Program-made: the position numbers and the translations under genes | Notes under the pieces: model-generated | Database searches by the model: none | What the model was told of the DNA's origin: nothing | The model's input: the letters and a program-made list of their open reading frames with translations, nothing else | In this document: piece after piece, positions 4,608 through 57,580 of the stretch | How positions within the stretch are numbered: position 1 is the first letter of the stretch | How the letters are laid out: each line of letters starts with the position of its first letter | DNA from: Kiritimatiellales bacterium | GTDB taxonomy: Bacteria; Verrucomicrobiota; Kiritimatiellia; Kiritimatiellales; Pontiellaceae | Direction: 5' to 3' | Length of the DNA stretch: 64,000 nt | Assembly (NCBI GenBank): GCA_003246265.1 | Contig: QKAU01000029.1 | Span: 1 to 64,000, forward strand

Positions 4608-4755
4608 CTTCCAATGAACATGGCTACGCTGGATGGAGTGCCTCCACGTACAGGAGAGGCTTCCCGCAGGTGGTACACTGGCGGGCAACCCGCATGGGGC
4701 GCGGTTGCGCATAGCCCGACTGAGATCAAGTAACCCTCGATGGGGGAGTTTGCCC

Positions 4756-6126
4756 ATGCCGACCAGGAAACGTTTTTTCGCCAGCCATGCCAAATCCAGC
4801 GCGGCCATCATCAGCCTCGCCATCCACGCCATCTTCCTGGTCGTCGCCCTGACCTTCGTGGCCGTCACGGTCATCAAGAAGGAGGAGACGAAATGGGAGG
4901 CCAAGCAGGTAACCCGTCCCAAAATGACGCTCAAGCGGCTGCAGGTGCCGGTCAACGTCAAGAAGCAGGCCCCGAAGCCGAAGATCCGCAAGCGCATCGT
5001 CGTGAAGCCCAGGGTCAACCAGAACATGCCGGACATCAGGATGCCTGAGGTATCCGGCGTCAAGGGCGGGCTTGGCAACGCGGGCGGCGGCGGATTCGGG
5101 GCGTCGGGTTCGGTCGGCTTCACCATGCCGGAAATCAACATCTTCGGCGTCAAGGGCAAGGGGGAGAAGATCATCCTGGTCCTGGACGCCAGCGCCGACA
5201 TGATGGAGGACAAGCGGGGCGGCATACCGGCCTACACCATCATCAAGCAGGAACTGGTGCGGATCGTGGAGGAGCTCCCTCCGACCGCGCTGTTCAACGT
5301 CCTGGTCTTCGACTGGAACAATGTCGCCATGGCCTTTCCCTCGCTGGTTCCCGCATCCGATGCCAACGCGGCGCAGCTCAAGAGCTGGCTCATGCCGCTG
5401 AACGGATCGGTGGAGCAGGGTTTCTCGGGACAGGTCGGCCTCCAGACGCTGGGCAAGGGCGGGTCAATGTATGGCGACCGGAACGACCTCTTCATCGGCC
5501 CCTTCAAGCATGTGAAACAGGTGGGGGGTTCCGGCAAGGCCGATGTGCGCCAGTGGTTCTGGCCCGCCATGCTCGCCCAGAAGCTCCAGGCCGACAGCAT
5601 CTTCATCCTGACCGACGACTGGGACATCCAGCGGGTGGGAACAACGACGGCCGGCATGTCGCGCGAGGAGTGGGACAAGACGGCCGCCGGCATCCGGTGG
5701 AAGGAAAAATACAGGGAGGGCCTCAAGCTGCTGGATGAAGAAAACGCCAAGCGGCGGGCCGCCGGCAAGGATATCAAGGTTCTTCCCCGCAACGAATGGT
5801 CCGTCAACAAGGAGTATTTTCCCGACATCGAGAAGCCGCCGCACGGCACGGACTACTACTACACGCCCAAGGATTTCGCCTATGCGTTTGAACTGTTGCG
5901 CGATGCCCATGGACCCCAGTCCATCCAGACCACCAGTGGAATCGGCAAGAAACGGAGTTCGAAGTCCGACAGCTCGGTCAACATCATCATCTTCACGCCC
6001 AAGGGCCAGCAGGCCTCGCAAGGAACCGAAGGCAACTTCAAGGCGCTGACCGGTTTGTGCAACGGCCAGTACAAGACGATCGCCGGCCTCGAGGCCATCC
6101 AGAGCTATGTGGCGAAGGCCGATTAG
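4756..6126 (+). CDS. Membrane-anchored protein with Pro/Gly module and degenerate vWA domain
   Basis: The 456-residue product has one membrane helix at residues 16-40, then a basic proline- and glycine-rich stretch (about 54-136) and a vWA-like domain from about 137. The domain opens with IILVLDASADMM. The expected metal site DxSxS is changed to DxSxD, so metal binding is uncertain. The 54-136 stretch closely resembles residues 213-289 of the anti-sigma/vWA protein at 54091-56868 (shared KKLQVP/KRLQVP, RRIV/KRIV, MPE-SG, SVGF-MPEI and FG-KG). The start at 4756 follows GGGGGAG. It ends 2 bases from the convergent DUF5060 gene. Function unknown. Confidence 0.7.
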   Translation: MPTRKRFFASHAKSSAAIISLAIHAIFLVVALTFVAVTVIKKEETKWEAKQVTRPKMTLKRLQVPVNVKKQAPKPKIRKRIVVKPRVNQNMPDIRMPEVSGVKGGLGNAGGGGFGASGSVGFTMPEINIFGVKGKGEKIILVLDASADMMEDKRGGIPAYTIIKQELVRIVEELPPTALFNVLVFDWNNVAMAFPSLVPASDANAAQLKSWLMPLNGSVEQGFSGQVGLQTLGKGGSMYGDRNDLFIGPFKHVKQVGGSGKADVRQWFWPAMLAQKLQADSIFILTDDWDIQRVGTTTAGMSREEWDKTAAGIRWKEKYREGLKLLDEENAKRRAAGKDIKVLPRNEWSVNKEYFPDIEKPPHGTDYYYTPKDFAYAFELLRDAHGPQSIQTTSGIGKKRSSKSDSSVNIIIFTPKGQQASQGTEGNFKALTGLCNGQYKTIAGLEAIQSYVAKAD

Positions 6127-44189: not shown

Positions 44190-45328
<1,139 letters not shown>

Positions 45329-45332
<4 letters not shown>

Positions 45333-47782: not shown

Positions 47783-50700
47783 TCAGGGGCGGCGCAGGCG
47801 TGCAACCGCGCCGCCCGCCAGAAGGATCAATCCGATGGAACCGGCCACCACGAAGGTGCGCGCGCCCCGCCCGCCCCGGAGCGGCGACGCGTGGAACGCG
47901 ACCGCCATCTCGGCATCGGGCTGGAGCTGCAGGGTCCGATTGAAACCGAGTTCCGTCCCCTGCCCCGCCATCACCACCCGGATGGGATGGACCTCCACCG
48001 AGGCCGCCTGCTGCTGGTCGAGCATGCGTTCGGCGAGGCCGCCCAGCGCGCTGCTCTCCTTCTCGCCCAGCACCGCCTCCACCTGCTGCACCGTTCCGCC
48101 GGCCTGGGCCTCGAGGTTGTCGGTCGACAGGTTGAGCGTCTGGCGGAGCTGGTTGCGGCGGTCGACCAGGCCCAGCAGGCCCTGCTGCCGCACGAGATTG
48201 CGGTACTGGATCCGCGCATCCTCGTTCAGGTCCTGCTGGCCCTGGGAGTAGGAGATCGCCTTGCGGAGCGCCTTGCGGGCACTGCGCTGGTCGCCGCCCT
48301 GCATATAGTCGTTGCCCGCCAAGAGGCTCTGTTTGGCGCTTTCGCCGAATCGTTGCGCAGTGTCGGTGTTGTAGCTGATGTACTCGGCCTCGCTGTAGGG
48401 ACGAAGCACGGTCCAGGAGCGGCCGTCATCCTCTGCCTGATACTCCATGGTTCCCGCGAAACCGGAATAGCGGTATCCCTCCGGCGCGTAGACCGTCCAG
48501 GCGATGTCGCGCAGCGGCAGGGCGAAGCGCGGCCCTTCGAGCCGGTATGCCCGCCCGAACGCGCCGTCCGTCCGGGAGTGGGCGTAGAACACCTCCACCA
48601 GCGCCGACCGGTCGGCCCCGGGCTCGATCGGCACCAGATAGCGGTCGCCCTCGACCAGCGGACGCACGGCGGTTTCGTTGACGAAGACCGACCAGATCTC
48701 CGCCCCCTCCGGCAGCCGCATCTCGAGGAAGCGGAGAGAACCCGGATCGAGCGTCATCACCATGCTGTCCAGGGTGCAGCCATCCCGCGCCACGAGCGAA
48801 TCGAGCCGGACGAAACGCACTTGGGCCGGCAGGACTTCCGCGGCGGCGTGGCGCACCACGCGCAGCTTCAGTTCGTAGTCCCCCTCGGTGGCCCGGTAGC
48901 AGAGGACGGCGGCCGAGAGGTCGCCCGCCCCGAAGCGCCGCGGAATGCTGCGCGCATCCTCGGGGCGCAGGGAGTCGGGAACCGCCTCGGGCTCCACCTG
49001 CAGCCGGCCGCCCGAAAGGACGACCACATATCCCTTCTGGCCTTCGGTGCCGAGGGTCTCCACGGGGCGGATGGACAGACCCGAACCGGCGTGGTCGAAC
49101 GGGGTCTGGTACATCACCTCCATGCCGTAGCGTTCCTCCACCTTGCCGTGCAGCTCCACCTCCCAGATGCCCTCGTTCTCGTCGACCTTGCGGACCCGCG
49201 CAATGTTCCGGCCGCTGACCTCCAACGCAACCGAGGGATCGGGGGTGCGCAGCCGGAAGGCCTTCACGCCGGCATGTTCGATCTCGTATTGCAGATGGCA
49301 GCGCACCTTGAGCTGGCCCTCGGCCAGGGCGATGCGCTGCAACACTTCGGCCTTCACCTGCGGCGCCATCACCTCGGCATGGAGCTGGACCGTCCAATCG
49401 GGCCGCAGCAGCCGGTAGGCGAGGCTGCCCTCCTGCCGGACGCCAAGCTCGCGCGGGTTGAGTTCGCTCGCGCCATCGCGCTGGACCGTCGTGACGCGAA
49501 TGCCGCGCTCGACCGTTACCGCCATCGTCCCAACATGCTTCAGCGCCCCATCGACCCCGATGCGCGGCATCGTAAGGTCCCGCTCCAGGTCGCGTCCTGA
49601 ACGGCTCAGCACCAGGTTTAATGGCACGGTGCCAAGCACCTGCCGCTTGAAATTGACGACGACCTCGCGCTGGCCCGTGACGACCTCGTCCCAGTGGCTG
49701 ACGGCCTCGCCGCCGAGCGTATCGATGTCGAACCCGTCGGGGATCCGGATCCGCAGCGCGAAGATGCCCGACTTGCCTACACCGACGGACAAGCGGCTGG
49801 TGAGTCGCAGTTGTTCGGCGGCGATGTCCAGGTTCGATTCCTCGACCAGCCGCAGCTCGGGCAGGACGGCATCCGCCGAAACCCGCGCCGCAAAGGGGAG
49901 CCGCCCGTAGCGGAACGCGCGCTTGATCGCCCCGCCGTGCCCAGCCTGGAGCAGCCGCGCGGCGTCATCCACATTGATCCCGCCGAGCTCCTCGGTCGAT
50001 TCGATGTCGACCTGGACGGAGTCTGCGCACGCAATCGCCACCACGCCGCGCTGCATGGCCGCCCCATGCACCGCCAATCCCTCGATGGTCGCGGAGTAGG
50101 GTAGCTTGCCGCATGCGATCTGCGCACCGATACCGAGGTGGCAGTTCCCGGAAGCCGGTGAGGAAAGCAAGACCTCGAGCAGGCGCGAGCCGGGATCGTA
50201 GCGCCACGTCGCCACGTGTTCGCCGCGCACTTCGGTGATGCTCATGCCTTCCGGCACATCGAACGAGAGGTTGCGCAGCTCGCCCTGGGCAATATTGAAA
50301 AGCAGGTCGTGGCGCAGGTCGACCGAACCCGGCCGGAAGTCGGCCAGCGTATTGACGTCGCAGTAGAAGCGGGCCTGCTCCTCGTCCGTCTTGCGCTCTT
50401 CGGGCTTCCAAACCAGGGAGCAGCGCCGATCCTTGCTGGCGAAGAGGATTTCCGCCTGCGCTCCCGCCTGGCGTACGCGGATCGCCTCGGCCGAGGCCAC
50501 GTTCCATCCCGCGACCGGCAGAGTGACCGTGGCCCGGTTCAGCAACGCCTCCGGCAACCACAGTTCCGTGCTCCAGGCCCCGTCCCGGTAGTGCGCCTCC
50601 GCGAGGCAGTCCAGCGCAACGTCATAGCGGCCCCGCCGGTCGATCCGCAGTACGCATCCCCCCTCGCCCACGGCCAGGTCCAGCCGTTTCGAGGAGAGGG

Positions 50701-53700
50701 TGAACGCCTTCAACGTTTGTCCCGGCCCCAGCAGTTGGAAGGTACCCGCGCCATCCGCCTCGAGCTCCATCGCCATGTGCACAGCCACGTTCACGGCAGT
50801 CTCCGTTTCGAACGGTGGCACCTCGACCGAAAGTGCCAGCCGGTTGGCCACGATGGCCTTCCCCTCTTCTCCGCCGGAGTTCCCGCCCAGCGAAGCGCAT
50901 CCGGCCGCCGCCAGCGCCAGGGCGGCGAGGATCAGGCCCATCAGCTTGATCTGCGCCGACCCGTCGGACCCGTCCGCCGGCATCCGCCCGTCGAAGGCCG
51001 GCATCTTGCGCCCGCCGCGGTCGGCCGCACGCTCCCTTCCCGTCCATCGGCCGACCATGAAGCAGAGTACGAAGAGGAGCAACTGGGGCGCCATGCCCAC
51101 GACCCAGGCCAGGCGCGCACTGAAGCTGCACAGCAGGACCGCGAAGGCAAGCGCCGGAAAAAGCCAGCGCCAGCGGCGGGTCGCGATCGACCAGAGCGCG
51201 GGAAGCAGTCCCACCACCCCGAGCAGCCACGCCTTGGCGGTCTCGTATCCCGCACCGGCCAGGGCCAGCTTGACGACCAGATCACCGCCGAATCCCGCCA
51301 CCGATTTGGAGAAGGTCCATTCCGACACGGCTCCGTGCTGCGCGCCCAGGCCGTCCGCCGCAACGGCGGCCATCATGATGCCCATGACTGCCACATCGGC
51401 CAGGCCGAACAGGCCCAGCAGCACCATGCCCAGTGAACCGGCACGCCGCGTTGCGGAAAGGCGCCCCATGAGGGAAAGCACCAGGGCGAGCAGGCCGCCG
51501 GCCACCAGCCAGGGCCCGGCCATGCCGACTCCGACGGCCGGAAGCAGGTCGCCCCACCCGCCGTTGCGGCGCACCAGTTCGCGCGGCGGTTCCATGTTCC
51601 CCTTTGCCCCGGCGAGGCGGTAGCCGTCGGGCAGGCGGAAGTTCCATCGAGCAAAGACCGCCTGGGTCTCGATGCGCGGGGTTTCGAAGACCATCCGGGA
51701 AGCAAGCCCCGGCTCGCGAAACTGCTGGGCGTAGGTCACCTCCACCTTCAGCGGAGCGTTCGGATCGCGCCGTCGCTCCACGGGCACCAGCACCTCGCCA
51801 TCGCCCTTGTCGAGCACCTGGACCTTGGCTTCTTCCACCTTCACCGACCATAGCGCAGCCCCTTCGGGCAGGCGCAGGGGAAGGTACTGGCGGTCGGTGT
51901 TCTTCACATGGTAGGTCGCCAGCGTCACGGCCTCGCCATCCTTCCCGATGGTGGTCTCGATGGTGGTGTGGTCCGCCACCTGGGTCAGCAGCGGCTGGGT
52001 ATCGAACCGCCTGATGCGCACCCGCGCCTCGTGCGGGCCGGCGCCGTACTTGTAGGCATGCATGACCGGGTCGTTCACCAGCAGCGCATACGCCTCGGGA
52101 ATCTCGTCGACGTCAATCGGATAGATGGCCCCCGAATGGCCGATCTCCCCGGCCACCGACAGGTTGGCGGCGCCCGCCAGCGCGATGTAGCCGGTCTCGT
52201 TCTCGATATCCAGCGCGCGGATTCCGCCGACGAGCAGCTCCTCGCCCTGGTAGCGGGCCGGATGGTCGTAGGTGACGAGCAGGGTGTAGTCGCCGATCAC
52301 CTTCTGCTGGAGACGGACGGTCCATTCGTCGCCGTCCTGCGTCCAATTGCGGATGTCGCGCCCGTTGAATTCGATGTTGCGGCAGCCTTCCGGGATCCGC
52401 AGCGCGAAGCTGCGCACCGGTGCGTTGGCGATGTTGTAGGTCACCAGGAAGCTGCCGAACACCCCGCTCTCGCCCAGGGAGACCAGCTGGAAGGATTCGG
52501 CATGGATCGAAGCCATTTCCTGGCGAATGCCGACGCGGCCCGACCACTCCGGCCCCTTGAAGCGGAAGGCCTGGCGCGCGTCTACGATCTGCACCGGAAG
52601 CGATCCGGTGTTCACTTCGCGCAGGCCGGACAGCTCGAGCCCCTCCACGCGCGTGCCCGTCTCCCCGCGCAATACGAGGAAGCCGCGCTCCGACTTGGCG
52701 CTTGCCACCCGGAACCGGGGCATGCGAAACCCGGTGGCACCTTCCGCCAGCGTGCGCTCAAGCCGCAACTGGAGCAGCGTACGGTTCTCGATCGCCTGCT
52801 TGAAATAGATCCGGATCCAGCGGGAACCGTCGCGGTCGCGCACATCGTAATCCGCCACGTTGCCGCCTTCGGCGGCGGTCACGGTCCAATCCAGGGGCAC
52901 CTCCACCTCGACATCGCGCACCGGGGCGTCGCGCACTTCGAGGTCGACCCGCGCATCGAGGGAGGCCTCGTTGTCGCCGAAGGCCAGCACGAGCTGGTCC
53001 TGGGCATGGAGCGAGGTGACGATGTTGTCGGCCGAGAGGGAGAGGGAGAAGGGCATGTTCGCGAACATGTAGGCGTAGAGCCCGCGCTGCGGGAGCGGCA
53101 GGTCGCCCACGCTCAACGAGGCCGGCTCCACTTGGGTCAATCCGCCGAGGTCGTCCACGAGCAGTTTCAGGGTACTGTCGGTACCGACCAGCACTACGCC
53201 GTTGGCGCGGATCACGCCTTCGGGCTCGATCACCGGGAAGCTGAAGGAACAGGGGAAGTCGGCCAGCGGCAGCTCGGCCTGGAGGGCCAGCAGGTAGCGT
53301 CCTTCCTGGGGGCGGCTCAGCTCGACGGCAAGATGCCGGTCTCCTGCCTCGCCGCGCACATCCCACGACAGCACGTCCTCGCCCACCACCTGGATGATGT
53401 TGAGTCCGTCCGGGAGCGCGAGCGAGATGCCCTTCATGCGCCCCTGCGGGATCGCGTAGTCGAAACGCCCCTGCAGCAGCAGGGCGCCAACCTTCGCCGA
53501 GCCTACCAGGGTGCTTTCGCAAGTCGCCACCAGTTCGCCCGACAGCTTCTCCAGCTCGGGCCGCCAGCCGACCCGCAGCGCCCCGGTCGGCGGCAGGAAG
53601 ATGCGGAGGTGCCTGTCGTCCAGCCGCTCCGTCTTCGGGGCATCGGCCACCTCGACCGAGCAGTCCGCATCGGCCGTCTCGACCACCATCTGCCGCACCG

Positions 53701-54052
53701 CGGCGGCCGGCACGCCGAACACCGTGGCCCGCTTCTGCCCCGAGGAGAACACCTTCGCCTCGAAATCGATCGACACCTCCTGCCTGCCGTTCTTTTCAAA
53801 CTCCAGGTAGTAGGCCCCCTCCTCGAGGATCAGCTGCGCGCCGCGCGGAAGCTTCATCTCCGTGGGCAGCACCATCCCGTCGAGCACCAGCATGCGCGCA
53901 GGGGCATCGTCGACCTCCGCCTCGAACCGCAGCCGCAGCGCCAGCTCCTCCTTGGAGATGCGGCCCTCCAGGTCGACCTGCCTGATCCCGACCTCCGCCA
54001 CGGCCCCATGGGCCAGAAGCAATACGACTAGAGCCATCCATGCGCGTTTCAT
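47783..54052 (-). CDS. Giant 2089-residue membrane protein with duplicated beta-rich halves
   Basis: The protein starts with a signal peptide (WMALVVLLLAHGAVA). It has a long beta-rich extracytoplasmic half, a cluster of several membrane helices near residues 830-1010, a second beta-rich half, and a C-terminal helix (FVVAGSIGLILLAGGAVARL). The halves are related: RLPEGAALWSVKVEEA with LVPVE (near 730) resembles RLPEGAEIWSVFVNET with LVPIE (near 1785). A lipobox-like LAAAGC at about residue 1051 lies between them, as if a second gene had been fused. A helical, Gln-rich section occurs near 1900-1980. It follows the anti-sigma/vWA gene by 38 bases, preceded by GAGAGG. Function unknown; a surface or secretion-related role is possible. 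Confidence 0.75.
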   Translation of the reverse strand: MKRAWMALVVLLLAHGAVAEVGIRQVDLEGRISKEELALRLRFEAEVDDAPARMLVLDGMVLPTEMKLPRGAQLILEEGAYYLEFEKNGRQEVSIDFEAKVFSSGQKRATVFGVPAAAVRQMVVETADADCSVEVADAPKTERLDDRHLRIFLPPTGALRVGWRPELEKLSGELVATCESTLVGSAKVGALLLQGRFDYAIPQGRMKGISLALPDGLNIIQVVGEDVLSWDVRGEAGDRHLAVELSRPQEGRYLLALQAELPLADFPCSFSFPVIEPEGVIRANGVVLVGTDSTLKLLVDDLGGLTQVEPASLSVGDLPLPQRGLYAYMFANMPFSLSLSADNIVTSLHAQDQLVLAFGDNEASLDARVDLEVRDAPVRDVEVEVPLDWTVTAAEGGNVADYDVRDRDGSRWIRIYFKQAIENRTLLQLRLERTLAEGATGFRMPRFRVASAKSERGFLVLRGETGTRVEGLELSGLREVNTGSLPVQIVDARQAFRFKGPEWSGRVGIRQEMASIHAESFQLVSLGESGVFGSFLVTYNIANAPVRSFALRIPEGCRNIEFNGRDIRNWTQDGDEWTVRLQQKVIGDYTLLVTYDHPARYQGEELLVGGIRALDIENETGYIALAGAANLSVAGEIGHSGAIYPIDVDEIPEAYALLVNDPVMHAYKYGAGPHEARVRIRRFDTQPLLTQVADHTTIETTIGKDGEAVTLATYHVKNTDRQYLPLRLPEGAALWSVKVEEAKVQVLDKGDGEVLVPVERRRDPNAPLKVEVTYAQQFREPGLASRMVFETPRIETQAVFARWNFRLPDGYRLAGAKGNMEPPRELVRRNGGWGDLLPAVGVGMAGPWLVAGGLLALVLSLMGRLSATRRAGSLGMVLLGLFGLADVAVMGIMMAAVAADGLGAQHGAVSEWTFSKSVAGFGGDLVVKLALAGAGYETAKAWLLGVVGLLPALWSIATRRWRWLFPALAFAVLLCSFSARLAWVVGMAPQLLLFVLCFMVGRWTGRERAADRGGRKMPAFDGRMPADGSDGSAQIKLMGLILAALALAAAGCASLGGNSGGEEGKAIVANRLALSVEVPPFETETAVNVAVHMAMELEADGAGTFQLLGPGQTLKAFTLSSKRLDLAVGEGGCVLRIDRRGRYDVALDCLAEAHYRDGAWSTELWLPEALLNRATVTLPVAGWNVASAEAIRVRQAGAQAEILFASKDRRCSLVWKPEERKTDEEQARFYCDVNTLADFRPGSVDLRHDLLFNIAQGELRNLSFDVPEGMSITEVRGEHVATWRYDPGSRLLEVLLSSPASGNCHLGIGAQIACGKLPYSATIEGLAVHGAAMQRGVVAIACADSVQVDIESTEELGGINVDDAARLLQAGHGGAIKRAFRYGRLPFAARVSADAVLPELRLVEESNLDIAAEQLRLTSRLSVGVGKSGIFALRIRIPDGFDIDTLGGEAVSHWDEVVTGQREVVVNFKRQVLGTVPLNLVLSRSGRDLERDLTMPRIGVDGALKHVGTMAVTVERGIRVTTVQRDGASELNPRELGVRQEGSLAYRLLRPDWTVQLHAEVMAPQVKAEVLQRIALAEGQLKVRCHLQYEIEHAGVKAFRLRTPDPSVALEVSGRNIARVRKVDENEGIWEVELHGKVEERYGMEVMYQTPFDHAGSGLSIRPVETLGTEGQKGYVVVLSGGRLQVEPEAVPDSLRPEDARSIPRRFGAGDLSAAVLCYRATEGDYELKLRVVRHAAAEVLPAQVRFVRLDSLVARDGCTLDSMVMTLDPGSLRFLEMRLPEGAEIWSVFVNETAVRPLVEGDRYLVPIEPGADRSALVEVFYAHSRTDGAFGRAYRLEGPRFALPLRDIAWTVYAPEGYRYSGFAGTMEYQAEDDGRSWTVLRPYSEAEYISYNTDTAQRFGESAKQSLLAGNDYMQGGDQRSARKALRKAISYSQGQQDLNEDARIQYRNLVRQQGLLGLVDRRNQLRQTLNLSTDNLEAQAGGTVQQVEAVLGEKESSALGGLAERMLDQQQAASVEVHPIRVVMAGQGTELGFNRTLQLQPDAEMAVAFHASPLRGGRGARTFVVAGSIGLILLAGGAVARLRRP

Positions 54053-54090
54053 GATCCACCTCTCCATTCCATCGATTCCCGTGCTCGCCG

Positions 54091-56868
54091 CTAGCGCTCC
54101 AGCGCCGCCGCCGTCGAAATCAGCTGCTGCAGTTCCCCCACCTGCCCGTCGAGATCCAGCGCCAGCGCCACCGGCTGCAGGTTTTCGAAGACCTCGTCGA
54201 GCGATGTGCCATCGGCATAGGGATTGCGCCGCAGCTTCTCCGCAAACTCGGCCGCACAGGCCGCCAGCCGGAAGCGCGGATCGGCCTCCTCGAAGCGACC
54301 GGAGCGCTGCGCATCGCCGATGCCGCGGCTGGTCTCCTCCACGGTGCCGTTGTCGCTCCGGCGGTAGCGCACGTGGACGGTGGCGACCGGCTCGCCATCC
54401 GCTTCACCCGGTTTCAGCTCCACCTCATAGAGCGCCGTCACCGATTGGCCGGATCCCACCTCGCCCGCATCCACCGTGTCGTCGCGGAACTGCTCCTTGG
54501 TCAATCGGCGGTTTTCATAGCCGAGTTGGCGGTAGCGCACCACCCGCTCCGGATTGAATTCGACCTGGATCTTCACATCGCTGGCGATCACGTGGAGCGT
54601 GGCGGCCAGCTGGTCGACGAAGAGGCGGCGCGCCTCGTCGAGCGTATCGACGAAGGCATAGGAGCCGTCGCCGCGATTGGCCAGCTGTTCAAGGAGCTCG
54701 TCGTCGTAGGTGCCCTGCCCGAAGCCGAGGACCGAAAGGTAGATGCCCTTCGCCCGGTATTCGGCGACCTGGGCGAGCATCGCCTCCGGATCGAGTTCGC
54801 CCAGGTTGGCCACGCCATCGGAGAGGACGATGATCCGGTTCGAGTCGCCGGGGCCGTAGCCGGCGGAGGCCACCTGGTAGCCCAGCTCCAGCCCCTTGTC
54901 GAACTGGGTCGGGCCGCCCGGCTGGAGGGCATCGATCGCCTCCCGCAGCGCCGCCTTGCCGGAGGCGGGCAGGTGTTCGCGCACCAGCCGCGCATCGCCG
55001 CCGAACTGGACGATGGCCACCCGGTCGTCGGGTCCGAGCTGGTCGAGCAGCAGGGCCAGCGACGCCTTCACGAGGCCAAGGCGGTCGGGGGTGCTCATCG
55101 ATCCGGAGGTGTCGACCACCAGCGTCAACACCGCCCCGCGGTGGTCGTCGCGCCCGATGCGGCGGCCCTTGATCCCGATCTTGAGCAGTTCCATCGGCGG
55201 GCGGAAGGGCGACGGGGCCATCGCCGCATGGACGGCAAAGGTCTGCGCCCCGGCGGGCGGGCGATAGTCGTATTCGAAGCTGTTGATGAACTCTTCGGTC
55301 CGCACGCTTTCGGGAGCGGGCAGGTTGCCGCCCAGCAGCTGCTGCCGGGCCAGCCCGTAGGAGGCGGTATCGACATCGATCGAAAAGGTGGAGAAGGGAT
55401 TTCCGGCCGCCTCCACGTAGGGATTGAACGCCGCGGGTTTGCGTTCGCGAACCCGGCCGAGAGCCTCCAGCTCCTTGTCCGCGGCCTCGCGTTTTTCGCT
55501 AAGCTTGCGGTCGACCGGCTTGGCCTTGGGTTTGAGCAGGGGTTGGGCCGGGGCTGCGGGCGCCGGGGCGGGCTTGGGCTCTTCCGCCATGACGGGACTG
55601 CCGAACAGATCGCCGACCGTGAAATCACCTTCCACCTTGGCACCGCCGGCCCGGTCTCCCAACGCAGGTGCGGCGGCCTTGCCGAGGTCGTTGCCCAATG
55701 CAAGCCGTTGCGCGACGGGCGCGCTGGAAGGGAGTGCATCCGCGGACCAGGCCGGGGTGGCATTCTGCAGATCCAGCTTGAGGGCCCCATCGCCGGAGCC
55801 GCCATGCAATCCAAGCTCGGCGACGCCACGCCCCGAAGCTACCGGGTCGTCGAAGTCCCAGACAGTCTGTGTCGAGCCCGCCGGCTGCGTCTGGCCGGCA
55901 ACAACGGCCGACTGCCGCCCGTTGATGGAGTCGGCGATGGAATCGAGCGCCGCAAAGCCATCGGCCGGCACCTGGGGCTGGGCGGATGGCTGATCGGCCG
56001 CGCCTCCCTTCGCGCCGAAAAATGCTATTTCCGGCATGCTGAACCCCACGCTGGAGCCATCGGCCAGCCCGTAGCTGTCCATGCCGCCAGCGATCCCGCT
56101 CATCTCGGGCATCGCAATCTCCGGTATCGAAATTCCCGCGCCTTTGGCGACGATGCGTCTTGAAGGTTTGGGCGGAGCGCTCTTGGAGATGCTGGCCGGC
56201 ACCTGGAGTTTCTTCATCGCCACCCTGGGCCGGTCGACCGTGGGGGCGGAGAAGGTCGGATCCGCCCCCGCGCCCCCCAATCCACTGTAGTCCCCGCTGC
56301 CCGCAAAGCCGAAGTAGGAGTAGGACAGTTCCTCGCCCGCCATTCCTCCGCCGGCCGCCAGCGCCTCGTCGGCGGCAGGTTCTTCGTAGAGGGCGGCACC
56401 GTAGAGGCGGGATTCGGATGGCGGTCCACTCTTCTTCACCGACACGGACGGCTTCTTCAGTTTCATCTGCGGCCGCGCCATAGGCGTGGGCGGCGTGAAG
56501 CACTGCTCTTCCTTCTGAACGACGGAAAAGACGACGAACATGCCGGAGAACATGAACGCGAAGACGGCAATGACACTGGTGGCGAGGGCGGCCCGGAACT
56601 GGGCGCTGTACCAGATCCGCGCGGCGAGGCTGCCGCGCAGGTTGACCGCGCGTTGGCGGGCGGGCCGCCAGTAGGGCAGCACCGCCGGGGCGGGCGCGGC
56701 GGCGAGGGCTTCGCCCAGCAGCTGCAGCGCCTCGTGCCGGGCCATCAGCTCGGCGCGGCAGGCGGGGCATTGGTCGAGGTGGACCCGCAGCGCGTGGTAG
56801 TCGCGCTCGTAGAGTTCGCCGTGGAGGTAGGCGACGAGCAGCTTTTCAAACCGTTTGCATTCCTTCAT
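54091..56868 (-). CDS. Zinc-finger anti-sigma factor fused to a periplasmic vWA protein
   Basis: The 925-residue protein starts with a zinc-finger anti-sigma domain (HLDQCPAC, residues 30-37). A membrane helix follows at about 93-117. The periplasmic part has Pro/Gly-rich linkers including residues 132-150 and 213-289, then a YfbK-type vWA region: NPFSTFSIDVDTASYG near 490, and the intact metal site VVDTSGSMS near 583. A C-terminal DUF3520-like domain ends the protein. The design suggests that an outside event sensed by the vWA domain is passed through the membrane to free the sigma factor. The sigma gene overlaps by ATGA and the giant gene follows. The mechanism is inference. Confidence 0.85.
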   Translation of the reverse strand: MKECKRFEKLLVAYLHGELYERDYHALRVHLDQCPACRAELMARHEALQLLGEALAAAPAPAVLPYWRPARQRAVNLRGSLAARIWYSAQFRAALATSVIAVFAFMFSGMFVVFSVVQKEEQCFTPPTPMARPQMKLKKPSVSVKKSGPPSESRLYGAALYEEPAADEALAAGGGMAGEELSYSYFGFAGSGDYSGLGGAGADPTFSAPTVDRPRVAMKKLQVPASISKSAPPKPSRRIVAKGAGISIPEIAMPEMSGIAGGMDSYGLADGSSVGFSMPEIAFFGAKGGAADQPSAQPQVPADGFAALDSIADSINGRQSAVVAGQTQPAGSTQTVWDFDDPVASGRGVAELGLHGGSGDGALKLDLQNATPAWSADALPSSAPVAQRLALGNDLGKAAAPALGDRAGGAKVEGDFTVGDLFGSPVMAEEPKPAPAPAAPAQPLLKPKAKPVDRKLSEKREAADKELEALGRVRERKPAAFNPYVEAAGNPFSTFSIDVDTASYGLARQQLLGGNLPAPESVRTEEFINSFEYDYRPPAGAQTFAVHAAMAPSPFRPPMELLKIGIKGRRIGRDDHRGAVLTLVVDTSGSMSTPDRLGLVKASLALLLDQLGPDDRVAIVQFGGDARLVREHLPASGKAALREAIDALQPGGPTQFDKGLELGYQVASAGYGPGDSNRIIVLSDGVANLGELDPEAMLAQVAEYRAKGIYLSVLGFGQGTYDDELLEQLANRGDGSYAFVDTLDEARRLFVDQLAATLHVIASDVKIQVEFNPERVVRYRQLGYENRRLTKEQFRDDTVDAGEVGSGQSVTALYEVELKPGEADGEPVATVHVRYRRSDNGTVEETSRGIGDAQRSGRFEEADPRFRLAACAAEFAEKLRRNPYADGTSLDEVFENLQPVALALDLDGQVGELQQLISTAAALER

Positions 56869-57440
56869 GACAGCACCCCCGCCTTGCGCAGGCTTTGGGT
56901 CAGCTTCCGGGTTGCGGCATGGATGAGCGTGCCGACATAGCCTTCGGATCGGCCGAGCACATCCGCAATCTCCTTGTAGGACATCTCCTCCTGCAGCCGG
57001 AGGACAAGCACCTCCCGCTCCTTCGGCTTCAGGGTGTTGAGGTGGCGCATCACCAGGGCCATGCGTTCGTCGCGGCCGCCGGGATCGCCCGCGCTGCACG
57101 GCGGGGGCGACAGCCTGGACTGCCGTTCGTGGAGCAGCCGCAGGCGAGACTCCTTGCGGATGTAGTCGACCGCCACGTTGTGCGCCGTGCGCATCAGCCA
57201 TCCCCGGAGCGGAACCCCTTTGGCGCGGATCCTTTCCCAGTTCCCATGGAGCCGGATGAAGGTCTCCTGGACGACGTCGTGCGCGGCGGCATCGTTGGCC
57301 AGCACGCGGGCGGCGTAGCGCAGCAAGGCGGATTGGTAGGTCTCCATGGCACCCTCCAGGTCCATGCGGTCCATTTCGCTCTGCCCAGGCTCCGGAAGCC
57401 GTTCGATCATCTGGTGGTCCTTTTTTCCGGGGTCTTTCAT
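56865..57440 (-). CDS. ECF sigma factor
   Basis: The 191-residue protein is an ECF sigma factor. Region 2 contains LLRYAARVLANDAAAHDVVQETFIRLHGNWERIR and region 4 LKPKEREVLVLRLQEEMSYKEIADVLGRSEGYVGTLIHAATRKL. It overlaps the anti-sigma/vWA gene by ATGA and probably directs transcription of its own operon and the giant gene. The start at 57440 lies 140 bases from the divergent glpD start, and promoters for both lie in that gap. Confidence 0.93.
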   Translation of the reverse strand: MKDPGKKDHQMIERLPEPGQSEMDRMDLEGAMETYQSALLRYAARVLANDAAAHDVVQETFIRLHGNWERIRAKGVPLRGWLMRTAHNVAVDYIRKESRLRLLHERQSRLSPPPCSAGDPGGRDERMALVMRHLNTLKPKEREVLVLRLQEEMSYKEIADVLGRSEGYVGTLIHAATRKLTQSLRKAGVLS

Positions 57441-57580
57441 GGCCTATACGCCTGCCGACCGGGGCGCCTTTGAAAAAAATCGGAAAAAACTTCGCACCCC
57501 CTTTTAATTGCTATCCGATACGGGTGGAGGTTTCGAGCACATTGTGGGAACCTTCCCCTGCCAACCGCGGAACATCCGGC

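Follow-up and report, generated by a model that had tools for sequence, protein, structure and literature searches.

The window analyzed here (the whole stretch of 64,000 nucleotides, from an assembly of 3.0 Mb that is 96% complete) carries the genes for an ECF sigma factor, a membrane anti-sigma factor ending in a YfbK module with a vWA domain, and a very long membrane protein, referred to below as the giant. Pontiella sulfatireligans is among its close relatives, which place it in the phylum Verrucomicrobiota and the class Kiritimatiellia. The question raised by this locus is whether the giant takes part in controlling the sigma factor or is simply made along with it. We propose, with moderate confidence, that the triad is an envelope-sensing ECF switch in which the vWA head works through the giant.

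Operon arrangement and the sigma factor

In the original prediction, the sigma gene overlapped the anti-sigma gene, a 2089-residue membrane protein followed 38 bases on, and the three formed one operon. The arrangement of the genes bears this out. All three ORFs lie on the minus strand, the sequence ATGA (56868–56865) is both the stop of the sigma gene and the start of the anti-sigma gene (a 4-base overlap), and 38 bases separate the anti-sigma/YfbK stop (54091) from ATG 54052, the likely start of the giant, which is preceded by GAGGTGG. Co-transcription is suggested by this layout. The survey of synteny in PVC genomes that had been recommended found the conservation to be real: in HMM maps, sigma, anti-sigma/YfbK and giant genes occur in that order in 34 loci, with the ATGA overlap repeated in many families, so the order is not due to chance. 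After a short gap, the giant is followed by the genes for a YmdB-like phosphoesterase and then xseA, both of which are ordinary. The features of the locus are collected in Table 1.

Table 1. Coordinates of the three-gene locus and of related features in the window
Feature	Position	Strand	Basis or remark
ECF-type promoter-like site CAAAG-N17-CGTAT (−35/−10), upstream of the sigma gene	57446..57472	-	conserved in 7/7 aligned Pontiellaceae loci
ECF sigma factor, ORF of 191 aa (likely 181 aa from 57410)	56865..57440	-	Pfam: Sigma70_r2 1e-18, Sigma70_r4_2 8.6e-13
Anti-sigma/YfbK fusion, 925 aa	54091..56868	-	Pfam domains
zf-HC2, class I anti-sigma domain, HLDQCPAC (Hx3Cx2C)	56755..56859	-	residues 4-38; Pfam 8.1e-8
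Single TM helix, residues 99-117	56518..56574	-	hydropathy 2.58
Pro/Gly-rich periplasmic linker, ~360 residues	55431..56517	-	ends at about residue 480
Linker module also found in the genome's TM-anchored vWA proteins	56014-56232	-	sequence comparison
PF12450 vWF_A	55183..55428	-	Pfam 9.9e-25
VWA domain, intact MIDAS DTSGSM	54643..55128	-	Pfam 7.1e-18
PF12034 YfbK_C	54103..54603	-	Pfam 3.7e-40
Giant periplasmic/membrane protein, 2,089 aa	47783..54052	-	ORF to 54067 = 2,094 aa (longest)
Giant, N-terminal five-domain beta array (predicted periplasmic)	51578..54004	-	AlphaFold2 pLDDT 85
Giant, middle: about six TM helices, Arg-rich loops, between the halves	50882..51523	-	hydropathy
Giant, second five-domain array (C-terminal), homologue of the N-terminal one	48413..50815	-	hhalign; model pLDDT 84
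Giant, conserved helical TPR-like segment, after the second array	48002..48391	-	helices in model
Giant, C-terminal TM anchor	47801..47857	-	hydropathy
HtrA/DegS-like protease, one PDZ domain	44190-45332	-	three genes downstream of the giant
Single-TM protein with the anti-sigma's linker module and a vWA-like domain	4633-6126	+	VWA_3 0.0024; adjoins sulfatase

The sigma factor is an ECF member, as it consists of regions 2 and 4 only in about 180 residues and scores 86.7 bits with TIGR02937 (cut-off 42.9); its closest solved relatives are SigL, SigE and SigW. Translation probably begins at ATG 57410 (MIERLPE..., with AAGGA in front), in agreement with the Pontiella sulfatireligans sigma start MIETKNQ. 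The alternative start at 57440, ten codons earlier, is doubtful because it lies only 5 nt past the putative −10.

The promoter-like site is present in the aligned Pontiellaceae loci whether they bear a giant or not, and other sigma-YfbK operons in the genus are preceded by it too. Its exact form occurs once in the whole 3.0-Mb genome, at the sigma operon, and a second genomic site, with one mismatch to the extended motif, falls inside an apparent DUF4139 reading frame (labelled by eye). A scan for sigma-70 promoters in front of the sigma gene gave no site. This conserved motif and its sole exact match make autoregulation of the sigma factor likely in Pontiellaceae, and the regulon seems narrow. 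No common promoter was recognized outside Pontiellaceae, which counts against the proposed switch. In one relative (G005) the motif also stands upstream of two genes for TM-anchored proteins with the linker and a vWA domain (L188 and L159). It is absent before 11 other TM-linker-vWA genes tested, including the window's own (the entries L153 and WIN of this test being one gene), and the idea that the sigma factor controls all such genes was rejected on that account.

The anti-sigma/YfbK fusion and its linker

The second gene had been described as joining a zinc-finger anti-sigma domain, a membrane helix and an intact vWA domain outside the membrane. All three parts are there; what did not stand is the picture of an isolated vWA domain, as PF12450, VWA and PF12034 follow one another, each over its cut-off, and together make up the full YfbK triad. 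The anti-sigma part spans residues 1 to about 75, and its best solved match is RsiW of the SigW-RsiW complex (E 0.003). With an N-terminal Hx3Cx2C domain over its cut-off (signature as used in PMC7406223), an adjoining sigma gene and a TM helix after the domain, the protein belongs to the class I membrane anti-sigma factors, and one TM region was found in 11 of 12 anti-sigma/YfbK homologues. By homology and from what is known of the family, it is near certain that the sigma factor would bind this anti-sigma factor. Mixed groups in which zinc may be structural have been published (PMC7406223); the loss of zinc ligands in some of the relatives compared here fits with this.

Some relatives divide the parts differently. 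In L060 (6691-10713) and L078 (1560-2662), the HC2 domain is on a short ORF separate from the YfbK part, with a toroid-like stretch in the linker (KSPVIMKGI...NGSWG, recognized by eye), and L078 has a second sigma and HC2 pair about 3 kb upstream. The YfbK protein of L222 (601-2685, minus strand) has no anti-sigma domain and is preceded by an STN/secretin-like stretch, again recognized by eye.

At the metal site, the DxSxS pattern of the MIDAS (D586, S588 and S590 in the window's protein) is intact in 32 of the 32 loci compared. This speaks for the idea, put forward in the original prediction, that ligand binding by the vWA domain could directly control sigma release: the vWA head would be a receptor for an external ligand, such as a sulfated polysaccharide, a cell-wall component or a metal, whose occupancy alone switches the sigma factor, with the giant as a carrier or scaffold. 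Also in line with such a receptor, each of four Pontiellaceae relatives has the linker module at 9-22 places in its genome, mostly in TM-anchored vWA-like proteins, and several of these genes stand beside sulfatase, LacI-type or polysaccharide genes; the motif upstream of two TM-linker-vWA genes in G005 points the same way. However, no sugar-binding domain was found, the triad extends across the phylum, beyond one polysaccharide-degrading lineage, and the promoter-like site is missing from the 11 other TM-vWA genes. We consider an external ligand of this kind improbable.

Linker length differs widely, between roughly 200 and just under 1,000 residues, and some linkers contain pieces resembling envelope proteins. 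PATR matches were found in L087 (6.1e-12), L091 (1.5e-10) and L069 (1.2e-8), a Secretin_N match in L140 (28.3 bits vs a cut-off of 28.2), a pilin-like DUF1559 start in L139 (1e-6) and DUF4159 in L132 (3.5e-32). Secretin-signature peptides below the Pfam cut-off occur in L074 (VPILGDIPLLGRLF) and L082 (VPLLGDMPIVGNLF), and a relaxed form of that signature was observed four times in linkers, compared with 0.02 expected from shuffles. The L128 linker is also among those with envelope-protein-like pieces. These pieces may be bait, adaptors or the mere outcome of recombination among abundant sequences.

As possible bait for quality control, the stretches resembling secretin, autotransporter and pilin parts would suit a giant that acts like RseB, shielding the periplasmic part of the anti-sigma factor from a DegS-like protease until misfolded or mislocalized envelope parts free it. 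A gene for an HtrA/DegS-like protease is indeed nearby, but it is three genes downstream, and its tie to the operon is one of nearness; the window's own linker and most others have no envelope-protein Pfam match. An RseB-like role of the giant is improbable in our judgment. The operon itself contains no protease dedicated to the anti-sigma factor, which also counts against the switch that we favor.

Structure and distribution of the giant

No convincing match to the giant was found in Pfam, NCBIfam, PADLOC or PDB sequences. Its two halves are homologous to each other (hhalign E 2.6e-68 over 772 columns) and pair domain by domain, 1 with 1', 2 with 2' and so on, with domains 2, 3 and 4 also mutually alike; the giant consists of one five-domain beta array duplicated in tandem. 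Nine homologues could be aligned end to end at 31-64% identity, that of P. sulfatireligans being 63-64% identical to the window's giant, and in two of the nine the TPR-like segment gave a TPR_2 match. Because of the signal peptide, the group of about six middle helices with Arg-rich loops and the C-terminal anchor seen in the hydropathy profile, both halves are predicted to be located outside the membrane. A lipobox midway along the protein was considered as a cleavage mark and rejected, as it is not kept in homologues.

Modelled with AlphaFold2, the two halves are predominantly beta; the mean pLDDT values of 85 and 84 and the pTM of 0.42 make the models reliable within domains and not for the arrangement of domains. 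In the N-terminal half, three successive domains (model residues 1-150, 163-325 and 329-495) match the non-catalytic N-terminal domain of M1 aminopeptidases in VIA-align, with Z 11.7-12.4 and rmsd 2.9-3.7 Å over 135-155 residues. Residues 329-760 match Ost1/ribophorin I with Z up to 15, the rmsd of 21 Å meaning that this likeness is domain by domain at best. Both are likenesses of fold only. Unlike these proteins, the giant has about ten domains in two tandem arrays, and the zinc protease motif HExxH is absent in all nine giants, which places them outside the M1 aminopeptidases. Foldseek matches to integrin legs, which aligned over long stretches, were dropped as generic beta-sandwich strings (rmsd 20-35 Å, TM 0.1-0.2).

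In a sample of 387 Verrucomicrobiota genomes, 79 match the giant profile and 133 match PF12034. Fifty-three of the 66 clear giants are directly 3' of a divergent PF12034 gene on the same strand. For another seven the divergent YfbK gene is on a different contig, and the remaining six are in genomes with no PF12034 match (G250, G362, G151, G164, G190 and G214). Contig breaks account for most of these 13 giants without an adjoining YfbK gene: the giants of G250 and G362 are cut by a contig start, and G151 was assigned neither way. Those of G164, G190 and G214 seem truly solitary, which suggests a giant with a role of its own and counts against the proposed switch. The divergent PF12034 genes linked to giants score up to 170 bits, and in this sample no PF12034 gene of at least 180 bits was the nearest neighbor of any giant. 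Among 14 control genomes, PF12034 was matched in E. coli alone.

With the exception of two, labelled PVC group or uncultured bacterium, all the named giant matches in the genome collection come from Kiritimatiellota, Lentisphaerae, Verrucomicrobia or Pontiellaceae; this was a degenerate-pattern scan, and other phyla may also carry giants. For a set of 32 non-redundant loci, the sigma, vWA and giant trees are congruent (Mantel r 0.893, 0.912 and 0.921; none of 2000 permutations as high), which for linked genes shows joint inheritance and not physical contact. Other relatives of the giant were also seen. In L062 (90-5563) and L063 (5317-10778) they are half-size and encoded as gene pairs (646-669 aa and 1,134-1,165 aa), the L062 pair near a response-regulator-like gene. 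In L143, L144 and L145 distant relatives are adjoining long genes (about 1,170-1,240 aa and 1,470-2,580 aa), near which no YfbK or sigma gene was detected.

Probable sensor exchange within the genus and the proposed switch

The sigma/anti-sigma-YfbK pair is more general than the triad, since in 17 of 20 loci with a canonical (high-scoring) YfbK an ECF sigma gene overlaps or adjoins the YfbK start (three of these 17 sigma factors score low, 29-43 bits). Many canonical YfbK proteins have an anti-sigma-like N-terminus, with the zinc ligands present or absent. YfbK was found in 14 genomes of the window's genus. The divergent form is present in four, all of which have the giant, and a full-length giant is found in none of the 10 with canonical YfbK only; such a split would arise by chance once in 1001 among independent genomes, and the independence of these is incomplete.

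Two giant-less Pontiellaceae loci (G005 and G015) combine a sigma factor of the giant-type clade with a vWA domain of the canonical clade (support of that clade 1.0). Their HC2 domains score 106-108 bits on the giant-type profile, as high as those of giant-type loci and compared with at most 28 for other canonical HC2 domains, the profile itself having been built with G015 and G001 included. In G001 (L054, 10170-15103), canonical and divergent anti-sigma/YfbK genes are found in one operon, behind one sigma gene and before the giant. The loci of G000, G021 and G005 occupy the same chromosomal place, before the phosphoesterase gene and xseA. The simplest reading is that the sensor was exchanged and the giant lost (or gained) along with it, while sigma factor, HC2 domain and promoter were retained; the direction of the swap is read from a single sigma tree, whose supports are modest. 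In the original prediction the giant could be either the ligand or the structure under regulation. Because the giant and the divergent vWA are present or absent together in one genus while the sigma factor stays, the evidence favors the giant being a dedicated partner of the divergent vWA.

The same series bears on a simpler explanation, that the sigma factor serves mainly to make the giant, a structure of the envelope, while the vWA domain senses some other ligand and the linkage reflects co-regulation only. Giants without sigma or YfbK in three genomes, distant two-gene relatives located away from YfbK, and canonical pairs that function without a giant all speak for it, and with the sole exact promoter match in the genome at this operon, the giant would be the main target of the sigma factor. 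A pure product, however, need not track the type of sensor, as the giant does while sigma, HC2 and promoter are kept. We regard co-regulation alone as doubtful.

In the envelope-sensing switch that we favor, the single-pass anti-sigma factor would hold the sigma factor in the resting state by means of its HC2 domain in the cytoplasm, as in its homologues. Its periplasmic YfbK/vWA head would use the metal site of the MIDAS to dock on the giant, and the two five-domain beta arrays of the giant would reach into the periplasm. The contact between vWA and giant is suggested by their adjacency and their shared presence and absence. If the giant were missing, displaced or strained, by envelope damage or growth state, the head would be freed and the anti-sigma factor would lose its activity, the simplest route being stepwise proteolysis of the kind that acts on RseA or RsiW. 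The freed sigma factor would then transcribe from its own CAAAG-N17-CGTAT promoter, and more giant and anti-sigma factor would be made until the head is reoccupied, a negative feedback. Such a conserved pairing suggests that the condition of the envelope is signalled to the cell's genes by way of the giant. The more specific version, a metal-gated periplasmic switch in which the MIDAS vWA reads strain or assembly of the ten-domain giant and passes it to the ECF sigma factor with no diffusible ligand, is unlikely to hold in full.

Like SigW-RsiW and SigE-RseA, the system has an ECF sigma factor, a single TM helix, a periplasmic C-terminus and adjoining genes, and it shares the N-terminal Hx3Cx2C domain with RsiW. 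Unlike both, it carries its YfbK/vWA head at the end of a long linker, is joined by a conserved third partner of 2,089 residues, and has no recognized RseB homologue or protease in the operon. The PF12450-VWA-PF12034 order and the intact MIDAS are those of the YfbK family, which includes E. coli YfbK; what differs is that the module is here the extracellular end of an anti-sigma factor, in a divergent clade tied to the giant. The canonical Verrucomicrobiota pairs have the same two-gene arrangement, but no giant, a vWA domain of another clade and an anti-sigma domain often without zinc ligands. Among the BatA/BatB/BatD aerotolerance proteins, too, genes for vWA membrane proteins adjoin one for a membrane protein rich in beta structure. 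The NCBIfam model of BatA, which is Leptospira-specific, gave 29.6 bits here against a cut-off of 380, outside that family, and the giant has no BatD family match.

No description of the triad was found in the part of the open literature that was covered. Beyond the original prediction, the analysis adds the YfbK identity of the sensor, the duplication and fold of the giant, the conserved promoter-like site and the sigma/anti-sigma-YfbK pairs without a giant. Regulation in Verrucomicrobiota is little explored, and the triad provides a phylum-wide signalling unit with an undescribed family of giant proteins. The natural series of sensor exchange within one genus separates the parts of this unit: sensor and giant change as a pair, and sigma factor, anti-sigma domain and promoter are retained. 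The YfbK module, on which little work has been done, thereby gains a concrete role, as the probable sensing end of an anti-sigma factor, with a partner that can be tested.
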